NCBI GenBank assembly: GCA_025060195.1
Contig: JANXCQ010000009.1
Coordinates: forward strand, 86,241-129,441
Direction: 5' to 3'
Source: Gemmatales bacterium
GTDB taxonomy: Bacteria; Planctomycetota; Planctomycetia; Gemmatales; HRBIN36
Length of the DNA: 43,201 nt
Every line of letters starts with the position of its first letter. Position 1 is the stretch's first letter. The notes under the pieces were generated by a model, which made no database searches, had not been told where the DNA came from, and worked only from the letters and a program-made list of their open reading frames with translations. A program made the translations under genes and the position numbers. This document shows, piece by piece, positions 25,554 to 32,517 of the stretch.

Positions 25554-26192
25554 ATGATTACTCGAATTACTGGCCGTCTGACCCGCGTTCTAGACGAAAG
25601 TGTCCGCTTGGAAGTAGGTGCATTGGAATATGAAGTGTTGGTGCCCGCCATAGTGCGCCACAGCCTAGGGGACAAACTGGGTCAGGAGGTCACCTTGCAT
25701 GTGAGCCACTTTCTGGAGGGCAATCCTCTGCAGGGGCGTATGGTGCCGAGACTTCTAGGTTTCCTCCACGAAGCCGAGCTGGAGTTTTTTGAGCTACTAT
25801 GCACCGTTGAAAAAGTCAGTGTGCGACGTGCCTTGAAGGCCCTTACCGAACCGGTTCGCGACATTGCCGAAGCTATTGTCCGTGAGGATGTCAAATGGCT
25901 GGCCCGGTTGCCTGGTCTCGGCAAGGCGTCAGCCGAGCAGGTGGTATTAGCTCTCAAGAAGAAAGCGGTCAAGTTTGCCCTCTTACGCAGCGGCAGTCAA
26001 CCAAGCCCGGAACCGAGCCGATCAGAGGCCGAACGGCACGTTTTCGATTTAGCCGTCGAGGCACTCCGCGTCTTAGGACACACCGCAAGCGAAGCCCGGG
26101 AATTGATAGACAAAGTACGCCCCCTGGGGCCGTTCGAAAATGTTGAGCAAGTGTTATTGGCCGTCTATAACCAAGCCCAACCGAAAAAATGA
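25554..26192 (+). CDS. ruvA: Holliday junction DNA helicase subunit RuvA
   Basis: The protein has 212 residues, close to the usual 200. Domain I is an OB fold starting MITRITGRLTRV. Domain II has two helix-hairpin-helix motifs: FFELLCTVEKVSVRRALKAL and LARLPGLGKASAEQVVLALKKK (family: LPGIGKKTAERIV). Domain III is the RuvB-contacting end DLAVEALRVLGHTASEARELI. RuvA tetramers hold the four-way junction while RuvB drives branch migration. The frame is open to 25509, but GGAG lies 8 nt before the ATG at 25554, where the homology starts. ruvB and ruvC are not adjacent. The first HhH reads CTVEKVSVRRA rather than the common SVSGVGPKLA and is somewhat divergent. Confidence 0.9.
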   Translation: MITRITGRLTRVLDESVRLEVGALEYEVLVPAIVRHSLGDKLGQEVTLHVSHFLEGNPLQGRMVPRLLGFLHEAELEFFELLCTVEKVSVRRALKALTEPVRDIAEAIVREDVKWLARLPGLGKASAEQVVLALKKKAVKFALLRSGSQPSPEPSRSEAERHVFDLAVEALRVLGHTASEARELIDKVRPLGPFENVEQVLLAVYNQAQPKK

Positions 26193-26258
26193 ACCATTTC
26201 CGGGTCCACGTCGCATAGGCGATGAAAACTTCCTAAGGGCGGTGTCGGTTTCGTCGAT

Positions 26259-26264
26259 TATAAT
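26259..26264 (+). promoter_or_regulatory. -10 box of the cysteine leader/serine acetyltransferase transcript
   Basis: A perfect TATAAT. A transcription start about 7 nt downstream would leave roughly 23 nt before the leader ATG at 26294. No good -35 hexamer is placed at 16-18 bp, so the promoter may rely on an activator or an alternative sigma factor. Confidence 0.5.
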
Positions 26265-26293
26265 AACGATAGCGTGGCACTCGAGGAGCTGAA

Positions 26294-26362
26294 ATGCGAT
26301 TAGTCGCACGATGTCGTTGTTGTTGCTGTTGTTGTTCTGAACCGGCGGTCGCCGGCTGCTAG
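26294..26362 (+). CDS. Polycysteine leader peptide, 22 codons
   Basis: A short ORF starts with ATG at 26294 and stops with TAG at 26360-26362. GAGGAG (26283-26288) sits 5 nt before the ATG. Of 22 residues 8 are Cys: residue 7, six in a row at residues 9-14 (codons 26318-26335), and the last sense codon (26357-26359). The gene 124 bp downstream encodes serine O-acetyltransferase, the first committed enzyme of cysteine synthesis. Amino-acid biosynthetic leader peptides carry runs of codons for the amino acid made by the operon, and polycysteine short ORFs acting as cysteine attenuators are known from mycobacteria. By that logic this ORF senses charged tRNA-Cys by ribosome stalling. A chance GTT microsatellite is the main alternative; start, Shine-Dalgarno, frame and location argue against it. 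Confidence 0.8.
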   Translation: MRLVARCRCCCCCCSEPAVAGC

Positions 26363-26441
26363 GTGTACGCCTTCGTGCCAGAGTCCTTACATCGCGTTAT
26401 CGGACAGGAAATCCCCCAAACCCAAGTATAAACTCCCGGCG
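26342..26441 (+). promoter_or_regulatory. Alternative-pairing element of the putative cysteine attenuator
   Basis: CGCCGG at 26350-26355 can pair with CCGGCG at 26342-26347 (local hairpin inside the leader ORF) or with an identical CCGGCG at 26436-26441. The two pairings exclude each other. A ribosome stalled on the Cys codons would cover about up to 26347, blocking the local hairpin and freeing 26350-26355 for the distal partner. A further possible pairing is CAGGAA (26405-26410) with TTCCTG (26447-26452). Pairings were found by eye and not folded. Confidence 0.5.
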
Positions 26442-26446
26442 TGAAA

Positions 26447-26479
26447 TTCCTGAGCATGACCAAGTCTAGCTCGGAGGAA
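26447..26479 (+). promoter_or_regulatory. Hairpin sequestering the serine acetyltransferase Shine-Dalgarno
   Basis: TTCCTGAGC (26447-26455) can pair with GCTCGGAGGAA (26469-26479): 9 pairs with one wobble and a 2-nt bulge, and a 13-nt loop. The 3' arm contains the full Shine-Dalgarno GGAGGA (26473-26478) of the gene starting at 26487, so this hairpin would close translation. The 5' arm overlaps TTCCTG, which can instead pair with CAGGAA at 26405-26410, giving an open state. Confidence 0.5.
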
Positions 26480-26486
26480 GAACGCA

Positions 26487-27425
26487 ATGGCCAGTAATCC
26501 CAGCTTGAAGGAAACCTTGCCTGCAATCACAGAGGCCATCGTCGAGAGTTATATGATGTGCCAACGCATCAATCATCTGGGGCATTTCCCTTTGCCCAGC
26601 CGCGAGGCCATCATTGACATTCTCGCCGACTTGATGGACCTGCTCTATCCTGGCTATCATCGCCGGCAAAATTTGCACATGGGCAACGTCATCTATCACG
26701 TGGGCGATTTGGTAGATGGATTACATGACAAGCTCACGCAACAAATCGCCCGCGCCTTACGCCATGAGTCGCAACAGGGCCAGGAAGGTGACTATGAAGC
26801 GTTGGCACAGCAGAAAGCCCTTCAATTTCTCCGCAAGATTCCTGACCTGCGGTTTCTCTTAGAGCAGGACGTGCTGGCGGCCTATGCGGGCGACCCGGCT
26901 GCCAAGAGCTATCACGAAATTGTGTTCTGTTACCCGGGTTTAGAAGCGATTACTATTTACCGAATCGCGCATGAATTGCACGAACTTGGCGTGCCCCTGA
27001 TTCCGCGCATCATGACAGAATACGCCCATTCCAAAACGGGCATTGACATTCACCCTGGCGCCAAGATCGGCCATTCGTTTTTTATCGATCATGGCACGGG
27101 GGTCGTCATCGGCGAAACTTGCGTCATTGGTAATCACGTAAAGATCTACCAAGGCGTTACTTTAGGAGCCTTGAGCTTTCCACGCGACACCGATGGCAAG
27201 CTCATTCGCGGGAAAAAACGACATCCCACTATCGAAGACGAGGTGGTGATTTACGCCAATGCCACCATTCTTGGGGGCGATACCGTGATTGGCCACCATT
27301 GCGTTATTGGCTCGAATGTCTGGCTTACACATAGCGTCCCGCCTCATACTGTGGTCCAATTAGAAAAACCGTCCTTGCGTATTCGGCGACCTGACGATGA
27401 ATTAGTGCCGAATTACCAGATATGA
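26487..27425 (+). CDS. cysE: Serine O-acetyltransferase
   Basis: The protein has 312 residues. It transfers acetyl from acetyl-CoA to serine, giving O-acetylserine for cysteine synthesis. The C-terminal two thirds is the SAT fold: [67 protein letters not shown], then the left-handed beta-helix hexapeptides [14 protein letters not shown] and [17 protein letters not shown]. The catalytic Asp-His pair (HPGAKIG...IDHGTG) is kept. The N-terminal 130 residues are longer than in EpsC-type enzymes, as in the SrpH-like class. A strong GGAGGA lies 8 nt before the ATG, inside a predicted hairpin. A polycysteine leader ORF upstream suggests control by cysteine supply. No cysK is adjacent; tatC follows. 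Confidence 0.93.
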
Positions 27426-27430
27426 GCGGT

Positions 27431-27449
27431 CGCTAGCTTCTCGCGAGCG
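27431..27449 (+). terminator. Weak hairpin after serine acetyltransferase
   Basis: CGCTAGC and GCGAGCG form a stem with one mismatch around TTCTC, 5 bp after the stop codon, followed by only GTTTCC. This may be a weak terminator or a processing site. The T-run is too short to be sure. Confidence 0.3.
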
Positions 27450-27538
27450 TTTCCATCGTGGAGCCGAGAACATACGACGTTCGTAAGATAATCCAAAGAC
27501 CTCTAGATAGGTCTGCTGGCTTTACTGGAGTTGCGTGT

Positions 27539-28789
27539 ATGCCCATGCCGCGCTCCCCTCTGCCTGACCCTGAAGACATGTTCGCCGATACGCGCATGAC
27601 CTTCGGCGAACACTTGGAGGACCTACGCCAACATCTGTGGCGGGCGATTTGGAGTTTTGTTATAGCCGTTCTCGTCAGTTTCCTGTTTGCCAATTACATC
27701 CTGCGAATCATCCAGGATCCCGTAGAGAAGGCGCTCATTGACTACCATTATCGCTACTTCCAAAACAATCCTGGCCGCGAATTGCCTATGCTGGACAAAG
27801 TTATGCAGGAATTGCAGACCCCAAAGCATCAGGACGACGCGTTGCTCCGCGCCTTTACTCAACCTGTTCAGTTGCACGGAGCCCTGCGGCGGCAGGACCT
27901 GGATCGGGCCTTACGAGAAATGTATCCGCAGTGGTTTGCCCAACAAAGGTCTTCCTTGAATAGCGTCGCGCCCGACCCAGCGCTTACGGACGAGCAGCAA
28001 CCTCGCTCTGCGGAACAAGTGAACCGCGTTGGACAGCCGACTCCTGATCATCCCGCGACCACGGAGATTCCTGTCCAGGTGAACGTGCGTCCTGTGGACT
28101 TGCTCCAGGAAATTCGCGCCCCGTTGGGGTTACTGACGCGGCGGGCTACGCTCATCGCCATGAATCCAATGGAAACGTTTATGGTGTGGTTCAAGGTGGC
28201 AATCCTCAGCGGACTGGTGCTGGGCAGTCCCTGGATTTTTTACCACATTTGGAGCTTTATCGCCGCTGGCCTGTACCCCCATGAGAAACGATTGGTATAT
28301 AACTCGCTCTTTCCGAGCGTGGGGTTGTTTCTCATCGGTGTGGTGGTTTGTCAGTTAGCGGTGATTCCTGCAGCGCTCCGGGCTTTGTTGGAGTTCAATC
28401 TCTGGCTCAATATCGAACCCGACTTTCGCCTGAGCGAATGGCTCAGCTTTGCCATTCTGATGCCTGTGATCACCGGGCTGTGCTTCCAACTGCCCTTGGT
28501 AATGTACGTTCTGGGCCGCATCGGCATCGTGACCCCCGAACAAATGGCCAGCAAACGCCGATTAGCCTGGTTCGTTATGTTGATCGCACTAGCGTTCATT
28601 ACGCCGTCCGTTGACCCTGCGAGCCTGTTGATTATCTGGTTGCCTATGTTGCTGTTGTACGAATTAGGCTTATGGATGGTGCGAATCGCGGTGCGTCGGC
28701 CTCCGGAAGAGGAGGAACAAGTCCCCTATGAGCCAGGCGAAGTTTGGTGGGATTGGGAAGACGCTCGTCAATCGGACGGCCGACGTTAA
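27539..28789 (+). CDS. tatC: Twin-arginine translocase subunit TatC with long TM1-TM2 insert
   Basis: The protein has 416 residues, about 150 more than E. coli TatC. The N-terminal signature FGEHLEDLRQHLWRAIW (family HLxELR) and TM1 come first. About 170 residues then separate TM1 from the next conserved part, MNPMETFMVWFKVAILSGLVLGSPWIFYHIWSFIAAGLYPHEKRL, with the PHEKR after TM2 that TatC proteins use in the signal-peptide site. TM3-TM6 follow. In typical TatC the first periplasmic loop is about 45 residues; here it is long, charged, and contains many Gln, Arg and Pro residues. Long inserts of this sort are seen in planctomycete TatC. The ATG at 27539 has GGAG 8 nt upstream; the frame is open to 27458. 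TatA/TatB are not adjacent. Confidence 0.92.
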   Translation: MPMPRSPLPDPEDMFADTRMTFGEHLEDLRQHLWRAIWSFVIAVLVSFLFANYILRIIQDPVEKALIDYHYRYFQNNPGRELPMLDKVMQELQTPKHQDDALLRAFTQPVQLHGALRRQDLDRALREMYPQWFAQQRSSLNSVAPDPALTDEQQPRSAEQVNRVGQPTPDHPATTEIPVQVNVRPVDLLQEIRAPLGLLTRRATLIAMNPMETFMVWFKVAILSGLVLGSPWIFYHIWSFIAAGLYPHEKRLVYNSLFPSVGLFLIGVVVCQLAVIPAALRALLEFNLWLNIEPDFRLSEWLSFAILMPVITGLCFQLPLVMYVLGRIGIVTPEQMASKRRLAWFVMLIALAFITPSVDPASLLIIWLPMLLLYELGLWMVRIAVRRPPEEEEQVPYEPGEVWWDWEDARQSDGRR

Positions 28790-30090: not shown

Positions 30091-32517
30091 ATGGTCTTGT
30101 GTCAAGCCACCTGTCCGCATTGCCGCTCGCACTTGTTCTTCCCAGCAGATTGGCGTTATTTGCTGTTGCGCTGCAAGACGTGCGGACAAACTTTCCGTGA
30201 GGTGAGACTTAACGTGCCGGCCCACCATGGTGTCGTGGTCCACACTCAGCCAACCCATCCGAGCACCGGCGGGAACGGTGGTTTTGCGAGCGGTTCGTTG
30301 GGTGCCCTAAGTGCTACCGGTTCCACCTCGGGAGCCGTTAGTGGGGCAGATAAGGCCAATTCGTTAGTCCCGATTCCGTCAGCCATTTTGCTTCCTACCG
30401 CAGAGCCTCTTGCGCCAGCCCCAACGCCGACTTCCGCAGGCCAGTTGGCCGAACGCGCCGCATCAGGCCGTGAGGCTTCGGCCGCAGCCAGTCCACCGAC
30501 CACGATCCCGCCCTCTCCTTACGAGGCAATTCTGGCGCGTCGGCGTCGGTTCCGTTGGGTCAAACTGGGTGTAGCGGCCATGGTTCTGACGACGTTTGCT
30601 TTAGCACTTGCTTTGTTTTGGCCATTAGTACAGCCGACCGTGTCCTCATGGTGGGCTCGACTGGTCGCGGTCTGGGAGCAAGCACGGAGTACGGAGTGGG
30701 CCAACGCTCCTGATAACCAGGAAGCGCAAAGCACCGGCGACTCTCAGGACCATAATCAAGGGAGCCAAGAGGGCCTTCCAGCCGGTCCTTCGGTGACGAC
30801 GCCGAGTAAACCCACTCTCGAGAAGAAGCCCAATGGGAGCCTGGGCACGAATGCAGATACACCTTCGGCACCGGCTAAACCTCCTTTAGGCAAGCCTAAC
30901 CGCCCGAGCAAGAGAGATTTTGACGGCCGGGCCTTGCTCATCGGTATCCAAAACTACTTTTACCTCAACCCAGTCAATTCGGGAGCACAACAACATGTAG
31001 GACAGCTAGCCGGGCACGTGGATTTCGACCCCCTCGGATTGCGCACCTTCCGCAGACGCTTGATCGGCATGGGCTTTCGCGACGAGTGTATCGGCGAATT
31101 GAGCGATGTAGCCGAGAAAAATCCTAATCCCCCGTTGAAAGCCAGCATTGAGGAAACGCTCAAGCTGTTTTGCGAAGAGTCCAGGCCGCAAGATAGCATC
31201 TTAGTGACTTATGTTGGGCATGTTCTGGTGCGTGACGGTAAGGTATATCTGGCCCCGATTGACGCCAAGCTGGACAGCCCGCCAGAAAAACTGGTGTCGT
31301 TAGAGTGGGTTTACCAGCAATTAGGCCAATGTCGCGCACGCCATAAACTGGTGATTCTCGACGTTGCCCACCTTGACCCACAAGAAGGCGTGGTGCGAGG
31401 TAAGGAAATGCCTCTCGAAGAAGAAGCAGAAAAAGCCATCGCCCAAGTACCTGAAGGGGTGCTGGTCTGGCTCAGCTGTTCGGCCAAGCAATTTTCCTAT
31501 GGTTTCGGAGGCTACGGTTTGGTGGGCAGTGTTTTCTTCCACATGCTCAACGAAATGACCTACATGGGACCCGACATACAGGGCCGACGTAACCGGGCAG
31601 CTTTGGAACGAACGCCGCCGTTTCCCGAGTGGGATTTGCCGATGCTGCGGCTGCACGCGCGAATCAATAGCGAGGTTAAACTCTACCTGAAGAACCTAAG
31701 CAACTTGGAACAGGAACCGAAACTGTTCGGCAAATTAGCGGCCGGACCTGGACCCGCTTCTAACGATCCGTTTCCCAAGCCTGTGGCGTTGAAATTCGCC
31801 CCGTTGCCTGATAAGCCCGTCGAAGCCGCCTTTGTGGACTTGATCCTCGAGGAAGTGCGTGCGCGGATCAGTAAAGACCGGCCTCTGCGAGCTGCCGCTT
31901 TGCCACCGTTCTGGGCGAAGGACATGGAGAAATACAAGCCCGACTACGTCGATCTCAATGCTTTACGCGCCCTGCTCGACGAAAAGCCATTGCGCAAAGC
32001 GGCCTGGGACGCCCTGGATCTGCTAGATAAACATGAACGCCAGCTGCGGATGAGCTTCCTCGCCGACGCTAATCCAGAAAACTTCCGCAAACAGATTCTC
32101 CGCGAGCAGGAAAACTTAGCCCTGGCAGACCGCGAGCTCTTTGAGTTCAAGGAAGTACTAGACAAAATCCGCGCCGAGCACCGTGCCCAGGAAACGCCCC
32201 GTTGGCAGGCCAATTTCGACTTGGTGTATGCCCGCTTCATTGGCCGCATGGCCTTGTATCGCGAATATAATTTTGTTATCGGCAACCGCCTTCGCCGCGA
32301 TCCGACCTTACAAAATCCTGAAAAGAATAATGGTTGGAAGATTGTACCCTCAGATCGGCTCCAGCAAAAGGAAACACGCGAGTTGGCGAAGGAGCGCGAC
32401 AAGATTCTCGAGGTGATCGTAAAAGAACATCCTAACACGCCCTGGGAGTTTTTAGCCGAACGCGAACGTGCTACCAGTCTGGGCTTGAAAGTGGAAGAGG
32501 CCCGCGTCAGCCCCTAG
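30091..32517 (+). CDS. Zinc-ribbon/TM/caspase-fold protein lacking the catalytic Cys
   Basis: The protein has 808 residues. A zinc ribbon (C8, C11, C28, C31) opens it. A long Pro/Ser/Thr/Ala-rich low-complexity linker and a TM helix (about 156-178) follow. After a second disordered linker comes a caspase-like (peptidase C14) domain from about residue 277: GRALLIGIQNYFYL, SILVTYVGHVLVRDGKVYLAPIDA with H377, and KLVILDVAHLDP. In active family members the last motif reads D-x-C-H-S-G; here Ala426 occupies the Cys position and the G after His377 is missing as well (VGHVL for SGHG). It should therefore be a pseudo-protease. The final 250 residues are helical and charged. GGAG lies 7 nt before the ATG. 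No neighbour suggests a partner. Confidence 0.82.
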   Translation: MVLCQATCPHCRSHLFFPADWRYLLLRCKTCGQTFREVRLNVPAHHGVVVHTQPTHPSTGGNGGFASGSLGALSATGSTSGAVSGADKANSLVPIPSAILLPTAEPLAPAPTPTSAGQLAERAASGREASAAASPPTTIPPSPYEAILARRRRFRWVKLGVAAMVLTTFALALALFWPLVQPTVSSWWARLVAVWEQARSTEWANAPDNQEAQSTGDSQDHNQGSQEGLPAGPSVTTPSKPTLEKKPNGSLGTNADTPSAPAKPPLGKPNRPSKRDFDGRALLIGIQNYFYLNPVNSGAQQHVGQLAGHVDFDPLGLRTFRRRLIGMGFRDECIGELSDVAEKNPNPPLKASIEETLKLFCEESRPQDSILVTYVGHVLVRDGKVYLAPIDAKLDSPPEKLVSLEWVYQQLGQCRARHKLVILDVAHLDPQEGVVRGKEMPLEEEAEKAIAQVPEGVLVWLSCSAKQFSYGFGGYGLVGSVFFHMLNEMTYMGPDIQGRRNRAALERTPPFPEWDLPMLRLHARINSEVKLYLKNLSNLEQEPKLFGKLAAGPGPASNDPFPKPVALKFAPLPDKPVEAAFVDLILEEVRARISKDRPLRAAALPPFWAKDMEKYKPDYVDLNALRALLDEKPLRKAAWDALDLLDKHERQLRMSFLADANPENFRKQILREQENLALADRELFEFKEVLDKIRAEHRAQETPRWQANFDLVYARFIGRMALYREYNFVIGNRLRRDPTLQNPEKNNGWKIVPSDRLQQKETRELAKERDKILEVIVKEHPNTPWEFLAERERATSLGLKVEEARVSP

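Follow-up and report, generated by a model that had tools for sequence, protein, structure and literature searches.

Cysteine-codon leader ORFs upstream of serine acetyltransferase genes in Planctomycetota: a candidate ribosome-sensed attenuator

The cysE leader of the window

The window analyzed here is the whole stretch of 43,201 nucleotides from a Gemmatales bacterium (contig JANXCQ010000009.1). It carries a serine O-acetyltransferase gene, with ruvA before it and tatC after it, that is preceded by a short cysteine-rich ORF (Table 1). This leader ORF opens with ATG at 26294, ends with TAG at 26360-26362 and comprises 22 codons, 8 of them for Cys; two of the eight (26312-26314 and 26357-26359) stand outside the uninterrupted run of six. 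The leader stop is separated from the cysE start (26487) by 124 nt. The first-pass annotation had placed the TATAAT and GAGGAG sequences, the 22-codon ORF, the six-Cys run and the 124-nt gap exactly to the base. It had also named the gene that follows a serine acetyltransferase, and the product, at 153 bits, does exceed the 150-bit NCBIfam cut-off for EpsC-type serine O-acetyltransferase. Note that the score against the cysE profile TIGR01172 is 167.5 bits, under the cut-off of 210.65, and that “cysE” is used here in a functional sense.

Table 1. Features of the leader region and of the gene downstream, in window coordinates.
Feature	Position	Strand	Evidence
-10 box TATAAT of the likely leader promoter	26259..26264	+	sequence; kept in same-genus species
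GAGGAG, Shine-Dalgarno-like, serving the leader ORF	26283..26288	+	sequence
Leader ORF MRLVARCRCCCCCCSEPAVAGC, stop included	26294..26362	+	sequence, chance test, relatives
Six consecutive Cys codons	26318..26335	+	sequence, shuffle test
CCGGCGGTCGCCGG, element GGCGNYYGCC closing the ORF	26342..26355	+	14/14 bases identical in same-genus species
Remaining leader, with cysE ribosome site GGAGGA at 26473-26478	26363..26486	+	sequence
Serine O-acetyltransferase gene (cysE/epsC type), presumed target	26487..27425	+	NCBIfam profile

A promoter scan returned no sigma-70 site with both hexamers; the leader promoter was called because of the -10 box, also retained in the same-genus species, and transcription likely starts near 26271. 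CCGGCGGTCGCCGG has a predicted local hairpin, CCGGC-GGTC-GCCGG. On the leader strand of 26363..26486, neither a terminator-like site nor a partner arm was found, and no T-rich stretch was seen by eye. An Rfam search of window positions 26100-27600 gave one match far under the cut-off, inside cysE on the other strand, and no match at cut-offs was obtained with 12 relatives.

For the chance test, positions 26193-26486 were subjected to 20,000 dinucleotide shuffles, considering ORFs up to 60 codons. The longest Cys run in the shuffles was four codons (once), compared to the observed six. A chance or microsatellite origin was rejected on the basis of shuffles and of conservation in relatives. The window genome (126 contigs, 93% complete) has, among the matches listed, 23 places with at least four consecutive TGY codons. 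Three of these overlap and represent the window leader; of the remainder, one is in a 97-aa ORF and all the rest fall within open frames at least 120 codons long. Three loci of the same genome (L142, L143 and L144 in G000) score above the cut-off for a Rho RNA-binding domain; a single rho is the usual number.

Cysteine-rich leaders in relatives

Within the order Gemmatales, 61 of 61 genomes (that of the window included) and 38 of 41 further genomes yielded a serine acetyltransferase gene, and 98 cysE upstream loci were compared. In the same-genus species the intergenic DNA mostly aligns poorly, and the -10 box, ORF start, Cys codons and CCGGCGGTCGCCGG are kept; CGATTATAAT, from the region of the -10 box, is identical. 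A strict pattern was defined as two TGY codons at a fixed distance from GGCGNYYGYY. It occurs in 15 of the 98 order upstream regions (L013 included), with no occurrence in 200 shuffle sets or on the reverse strand. The window copy misses this pattern by one codon, because the position of the last Cys codon before the element is occupied by TCT. Short ORFs with at least three Cys in eight codons were present at 24 of 97 order loci (shuffle mean 3.0, reverse strand 2), and those with at least four at 6 of 97 (shuffle mean 0.25, reverse strand 0); L007, whose contig ends 134 nt upstream, was left out of these counts. Cys-rich short ORFs precede cysE in 10 genera of the order, and in the nine further genera the frame ends are, for example, CRCICRSAIAG, CRCTCQSATAG and CFCTCPPAVAGK. 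The Cys codons stand at a fixed spacing before the element in Gemmatales, and the element is conserved as nucleic acid, because in L011 and L083 the stop codon precedes GGCG and the element is still kept. Placing the 18 leader-bearing rows on the gene tree takes 5 changes, compared to an average of 16.8 with shuffled labels.

The rest of the class was sampled with 96 loci, made up of 15 from a search, L238, and 80 chosen by hand from the listed best matches with at least one per genus; these matches came from 288 of 297 genomes, and the choice is not a random draw. ORFs within 250 nt of the gene with at least three Cys in eight codons precede 38 of these 96 cysE genes (shuffle mean 3.65, reverse strand 1), and the requirement of at least four leaves 24 of 96 (shuffle mean 0.275, reverse strand 0). 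Such leaders occur in 11 of the 16 sampled families, where a lone family match (f7, 1 of 21) can be chance, and they end, directly before the stop codon, in for example CVCSCPA, CCCRCPG, FCCRCCC, GGCCCC or CYCRTCLCCC. In the genus with the last of these endings, codons 4-16 encode one and the same peptide in eight species, and the seven codons that vary do so synonymously in every case. The 48 nt that come next are 43% identical in this genus, and the 48 nt before the ORF are 93% identical, the same as the ORF itself. In other classes of the phylum, the finding of leaders at 2 of 14 loci (shuffle mean 0.675, maximum 3) is not above chance given that shuffle maximum, and 16 more loci examined by a looser criterion only gave four weak candidates. 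One locus of another class (L217 in G158, family f53) has MTLCCICTSGV followed by a stop codon before cysE, with a CCAGC/GCTGG hairpin around the stop (p 0.083), and is a lone lead that the device may extend outside the class.

Alignment of the cysE upstream regions of relatives, the check proposed by the first-pass annotation, thus had a positive outcome and one wider than expected, with the 10 order genera and 11 class families given above. Of the observations named there as counting against an attenuator, two are each true in part. Relatives that have the same gene without a Cys-rich ORF do exist, in that both species of the sister genus (L004, L005) have no such ORF before cysE and about four in five order loci, most Gemmata-type cysE genes included, have none by the strict pattern; many other relatives have the ORF. 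Variation of the Cys tract in the manner of a microsatellite is seen in length, which differs between both species of the genus of the window, and not in frame, which is kept within the ORF.

Many leaderless genes have a promoter-like site close to the gene, judged by eye. Also by eye, a conserved block like CGCCTTGTGACATTTCCGACAAG stands 100-250 nt before cysE at L049, L050, L060, L048, L097 and other Gemmata-type leaderless loci. At the leaderless loci of two same-family genomes (L045, L051), cysE adjoins the 3′ end of a gene that by eye resembles the 808-aa gene at window positions 30091-32517. Rearrangement may have removed the leader in these two genomes, because this gene end stands directly before cysE. 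One genome (G074) has two cysE-like genes, L082 and L114, with a Cys leader at only one of them.

To assess specificity, the Gemmatales motif was searched with one mismatch in the order, giving 12 places in 12 of 102 genomes; eight are before cysE and four are not, and the reversed control gave three. Among 392 genomes of the phylum, of which that of the window is the sole order member, 15 places in 14 genomes were found; no fetched stretch contained cysE, and the reversed control was as frequent as the motif (19 by table count). A search of 84,980 genomes gave 12 places, five before cysE, all in planctomycete MAGs. A looser motif applied to 18 leader-bearing genomes gave 25 places, 13 before cysE and 12 elsewhere, and 11 of the latter 12 lie inside open frames of at least 120 codons. 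When the best cysK locus of each of 30 leader-bearing genomes was considered, a Cys-rich short ORF was present before cysK in one (L324 in G253, where the ORF ends in GCCCPVSCLCNKIDLTCFLL). In G059, G036, G045, G028, G088, G087 and G078, each strand has 5 to 17 copies of the reversed control pattern CCGYYNGCGGNNNNNYGTNNNYGT, which is rare in most other members searched; it is probably a dispersed repeat family.

RNA pairing at the end of the leader ORF

A conserved hairpin at or after the last Cys codons is a feature absent from the first-pass annotation. For Gemmatales, pairing was tested in 17 leaders picked with a fuzzy motif and by eye, leaving out L013 (a near copy of L011) and L005 (no fit). 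A downstream stretch complementary to GGCGNYY, with 7/7 pairs and at most one G-U, is present in 15 of the 17 leaders. Shuffled sets had a mean of 0.87 and a maximum of 5 over 1000 sets, and 67 of 1309 leaderless windows contained such a stretch. The arms covary, with GGCGACC/GGTCGCC, GGCGGTC/GACCGCC, GGCGATT/AGTCGCC and GGCGTTCGCCGG/CCGGTGAATGCC all represented. Permutation of own versus foreign arms gave p values of 0.0001 for the 17 leaders, 0.0056 for six leaders of one genus, and 0.23 with one leader per genus. In the genus of the window, the long stem is present in neither of two leaders under the rule of at most one G-U, and L003 pairs only with three G-U.

The other set comprised 39 leaders, namely the 38 class leaders and L217. 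A hairpin at the last Cys codon was detected with p up to 0.05 in 14 of them, where about two are expected by chance. In 10 of those 14 the stop codon lies inside the hairpin loop, as in TGTCCGG-GCTGA-CCGGACA. The arms differ among families (TGTCCGG/CCGGACA, CGTCCGGAG/CTCCGGACG, CGACCGT/ACGGTCG). No significant hairpin was found in the remaining 25 leaders, including all eight of the CYCRTCLCCC genus.

In the 15 nt after the 3′ arm, the T fraction is 0.324 versus 0.220 in 15 Gemmatales leaders (p 0.0002) and 0.371 versus 0.263 in 14 other leaders (p 0.0014), and G is low in both groups; note that this test was made after some sequences had been viewed. Such T-rich, G-poor DNA is as expected for a weak terminator. 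A strict scan for intrinsic-terminator-like sites found none in the 17 Gemmatales leaders, and 11 of the 39 other leaders have one, a raw count without shuffle control.

A candidate cysteine attenuator

Judging from sequence comparison, we consider it somewhat probable that a ribosome-sensed cysteine attenuator precedes cysE, with the Cys-rich ORF as its sensing part. This reading, put forward at the outset from the window, gains support from the Cys-rich ORFs of relatives and from the purely synonymous changes in the core of one genus. The window ORF is presumably translated. Ribosomes slowing at the last Cys codons, which may be the decisive ones, would cover the 5′ arm of the hairpin, which the Cys codons adjoin or enter, and RNA polymerase would continue into cysE. 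With ample cysteine, the prediction is that the ribosome reaches the stop codon, in or beside the hairpin, and then leaves, whereupon the hairpin would form and likely end or block cysE expression. The block may be intrinsic, Rho-dependent or translational. Occlusion of the 5′ arm appears to be the simplest reading that gives a useful sign of response, and it is favored because in several families the last Cys codon is itself part of the hairpin. Against an attenuator stand the genus of the window, which has neither the longer stem nor a terminator-like site, and the sister genus, which lacks the ORF. The arm test with one leader per genus, the 25 class leaders without a significant hairpin, and the sequence ahead of the ORF in the CYCRTCLCCC genus, conserved to the same degree as the ORF, also count against it.

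The same sensor could operate with reverse logic, where read-through holds the stem open so that Rho has access to pyrimidine-rich RNA, and a stall at the first Cys codons leads to the stem, Rho off and cysE on. A stall at the first Cys codons fits this scheme better because the hairpin would stay free, and in RNA folding the long stem persists when a ribosome blocks the first Cys codon and is lost in most of the 17 leaders when the ribosome is at the stop. The lack of terminator-like sites in 17 of 17 Gemmatales leaders and the three Rho-domain loci of the window genome would also agree with it, as would the excess of C over G in leaders relative to leaderless sequences (p 0.012), but this difference is modest, T rather than C is enriched directly after the stem, and the hairpin overlap with the last Cys codon favors occlusion. 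We regard this reverse logic as unlikely but worth serious consideration. More doubtful is translational attenuation, where a stalled ribosome refolds the RNA and frees the cysE ribosome site; in folding, placing the ribosome at the first Cys codon instead of the stop made the cysE start easier to open in 8 of 17 leaders, but harder in 3, and made no difference in 6.

It is very improbable that the ORF makes a small Cys-rich protein, perhaps metal-binding, with a function of its own. A peptide core identical across eight species of one genus would suit such a protein, but genera differ widely in peptide length, in the N-terminus and in what follows the Cys codons, the stop codon of L011 and L083 falls ahead of the conserved element, and the ORF always examined is the one before cysE, its like being rare before cysK. 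The least probable account is that the ORF arose by chance or by expansion of a repeat, or that a palindrome within the transcribed leader serves a DNA-binding protein as operator. The differing tract length in the two species of one genus could be cited for it, and GGCGATCGCC is palindromic, with the second arm of the stem as its inverted copy; against it are the shuffle and reverse-strand controls, the synonymous changes, and the fixed frame and spacing of the Cys codons to the element. Returning to the occlusion reading, we suggest tentatively a switch used throughout this planctomycete class, where pairing in the hairpin begins with the last Cys codon, the stop lies in the loop, and one ribosome position both senses and switches; Gemmatales would have lengthened the stem, and the genus of the window would have traded the distant arm for a longer Cys run.

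Classical attenuators such as trp and his have a leader peptide with codons for the product amino acid and RNA structures overlapping its end. The present leaders are like these in having a short ORF with clustered codons for the pathway product before a pathway gene, and they differ in that no pair of antiterminator and U-tract terminator was recognized in the window and in that the Cys codons adjoin or enter the stem. Of the Gemmatales leaders, 15 of 17 can form competing RNA structures that overlap the ORF; 14 of the 39 others have a single hairpin, and the window has only the local one. We do not class the device as a classical attenuator because no intrinsic-terminator-like site was found on the leader strand of the window or in any of the 17 Gemmatales leaders. 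In mycobacteria, polycysteine leaderless short ORFs are reported to precede cysteine genes, with attenuation that depends on cysteine supply (Canestrari et al. 2020, Mol. Microbiol., as cited in other papers). Those actinobacterial ORFs share with ours the contiguous Cys codons in a short ORF before a cysteine gene and differ in being leaderless, with AUG at the transcript start, whereas here a Shine-Dalgarno-like site follows a likely 5′ stretch, the target is cysE, and a conserved hairpin lies at the Cys codons or stop. In the window, the 29 nt from the end of the -10 box to the ATG, with GAGGAG between, would argue against a leaderless start. For cys and cbs operons of Actinobacteria, candidate Cys leader peptides were predicted in 2005, with no conserved hairpins reported (Seliverstov et al. 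2005, PMC1262725). They resemble ours in the Cys-codon runs near the stop and in the lack of an obvious terminator (Rho was proposed there), and they differ in phylum, in target gene and in the hairpin or stem that many relatives have here. The literature searched on cysteine leader peptides and attenuation, with most subscription papers outside the search, contained no description in this phylum. The Cys-codon leader is a kind already known from Actinobacteria, and the planctomycete cysE version appears to be new as far as we found.

The Cys codons, the stem and the stop in the loop are each a separately alterable part. If the attenuator reading is true, a class of Planctomycetota would control cysteine synthesis at its entry enzyme by means of the ribosome itself, using an unusually compact attenuator. 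Dozens of cysE leader peptides would then await annotation, and sensing through Cys codons would not be confined to Actinobacteria.
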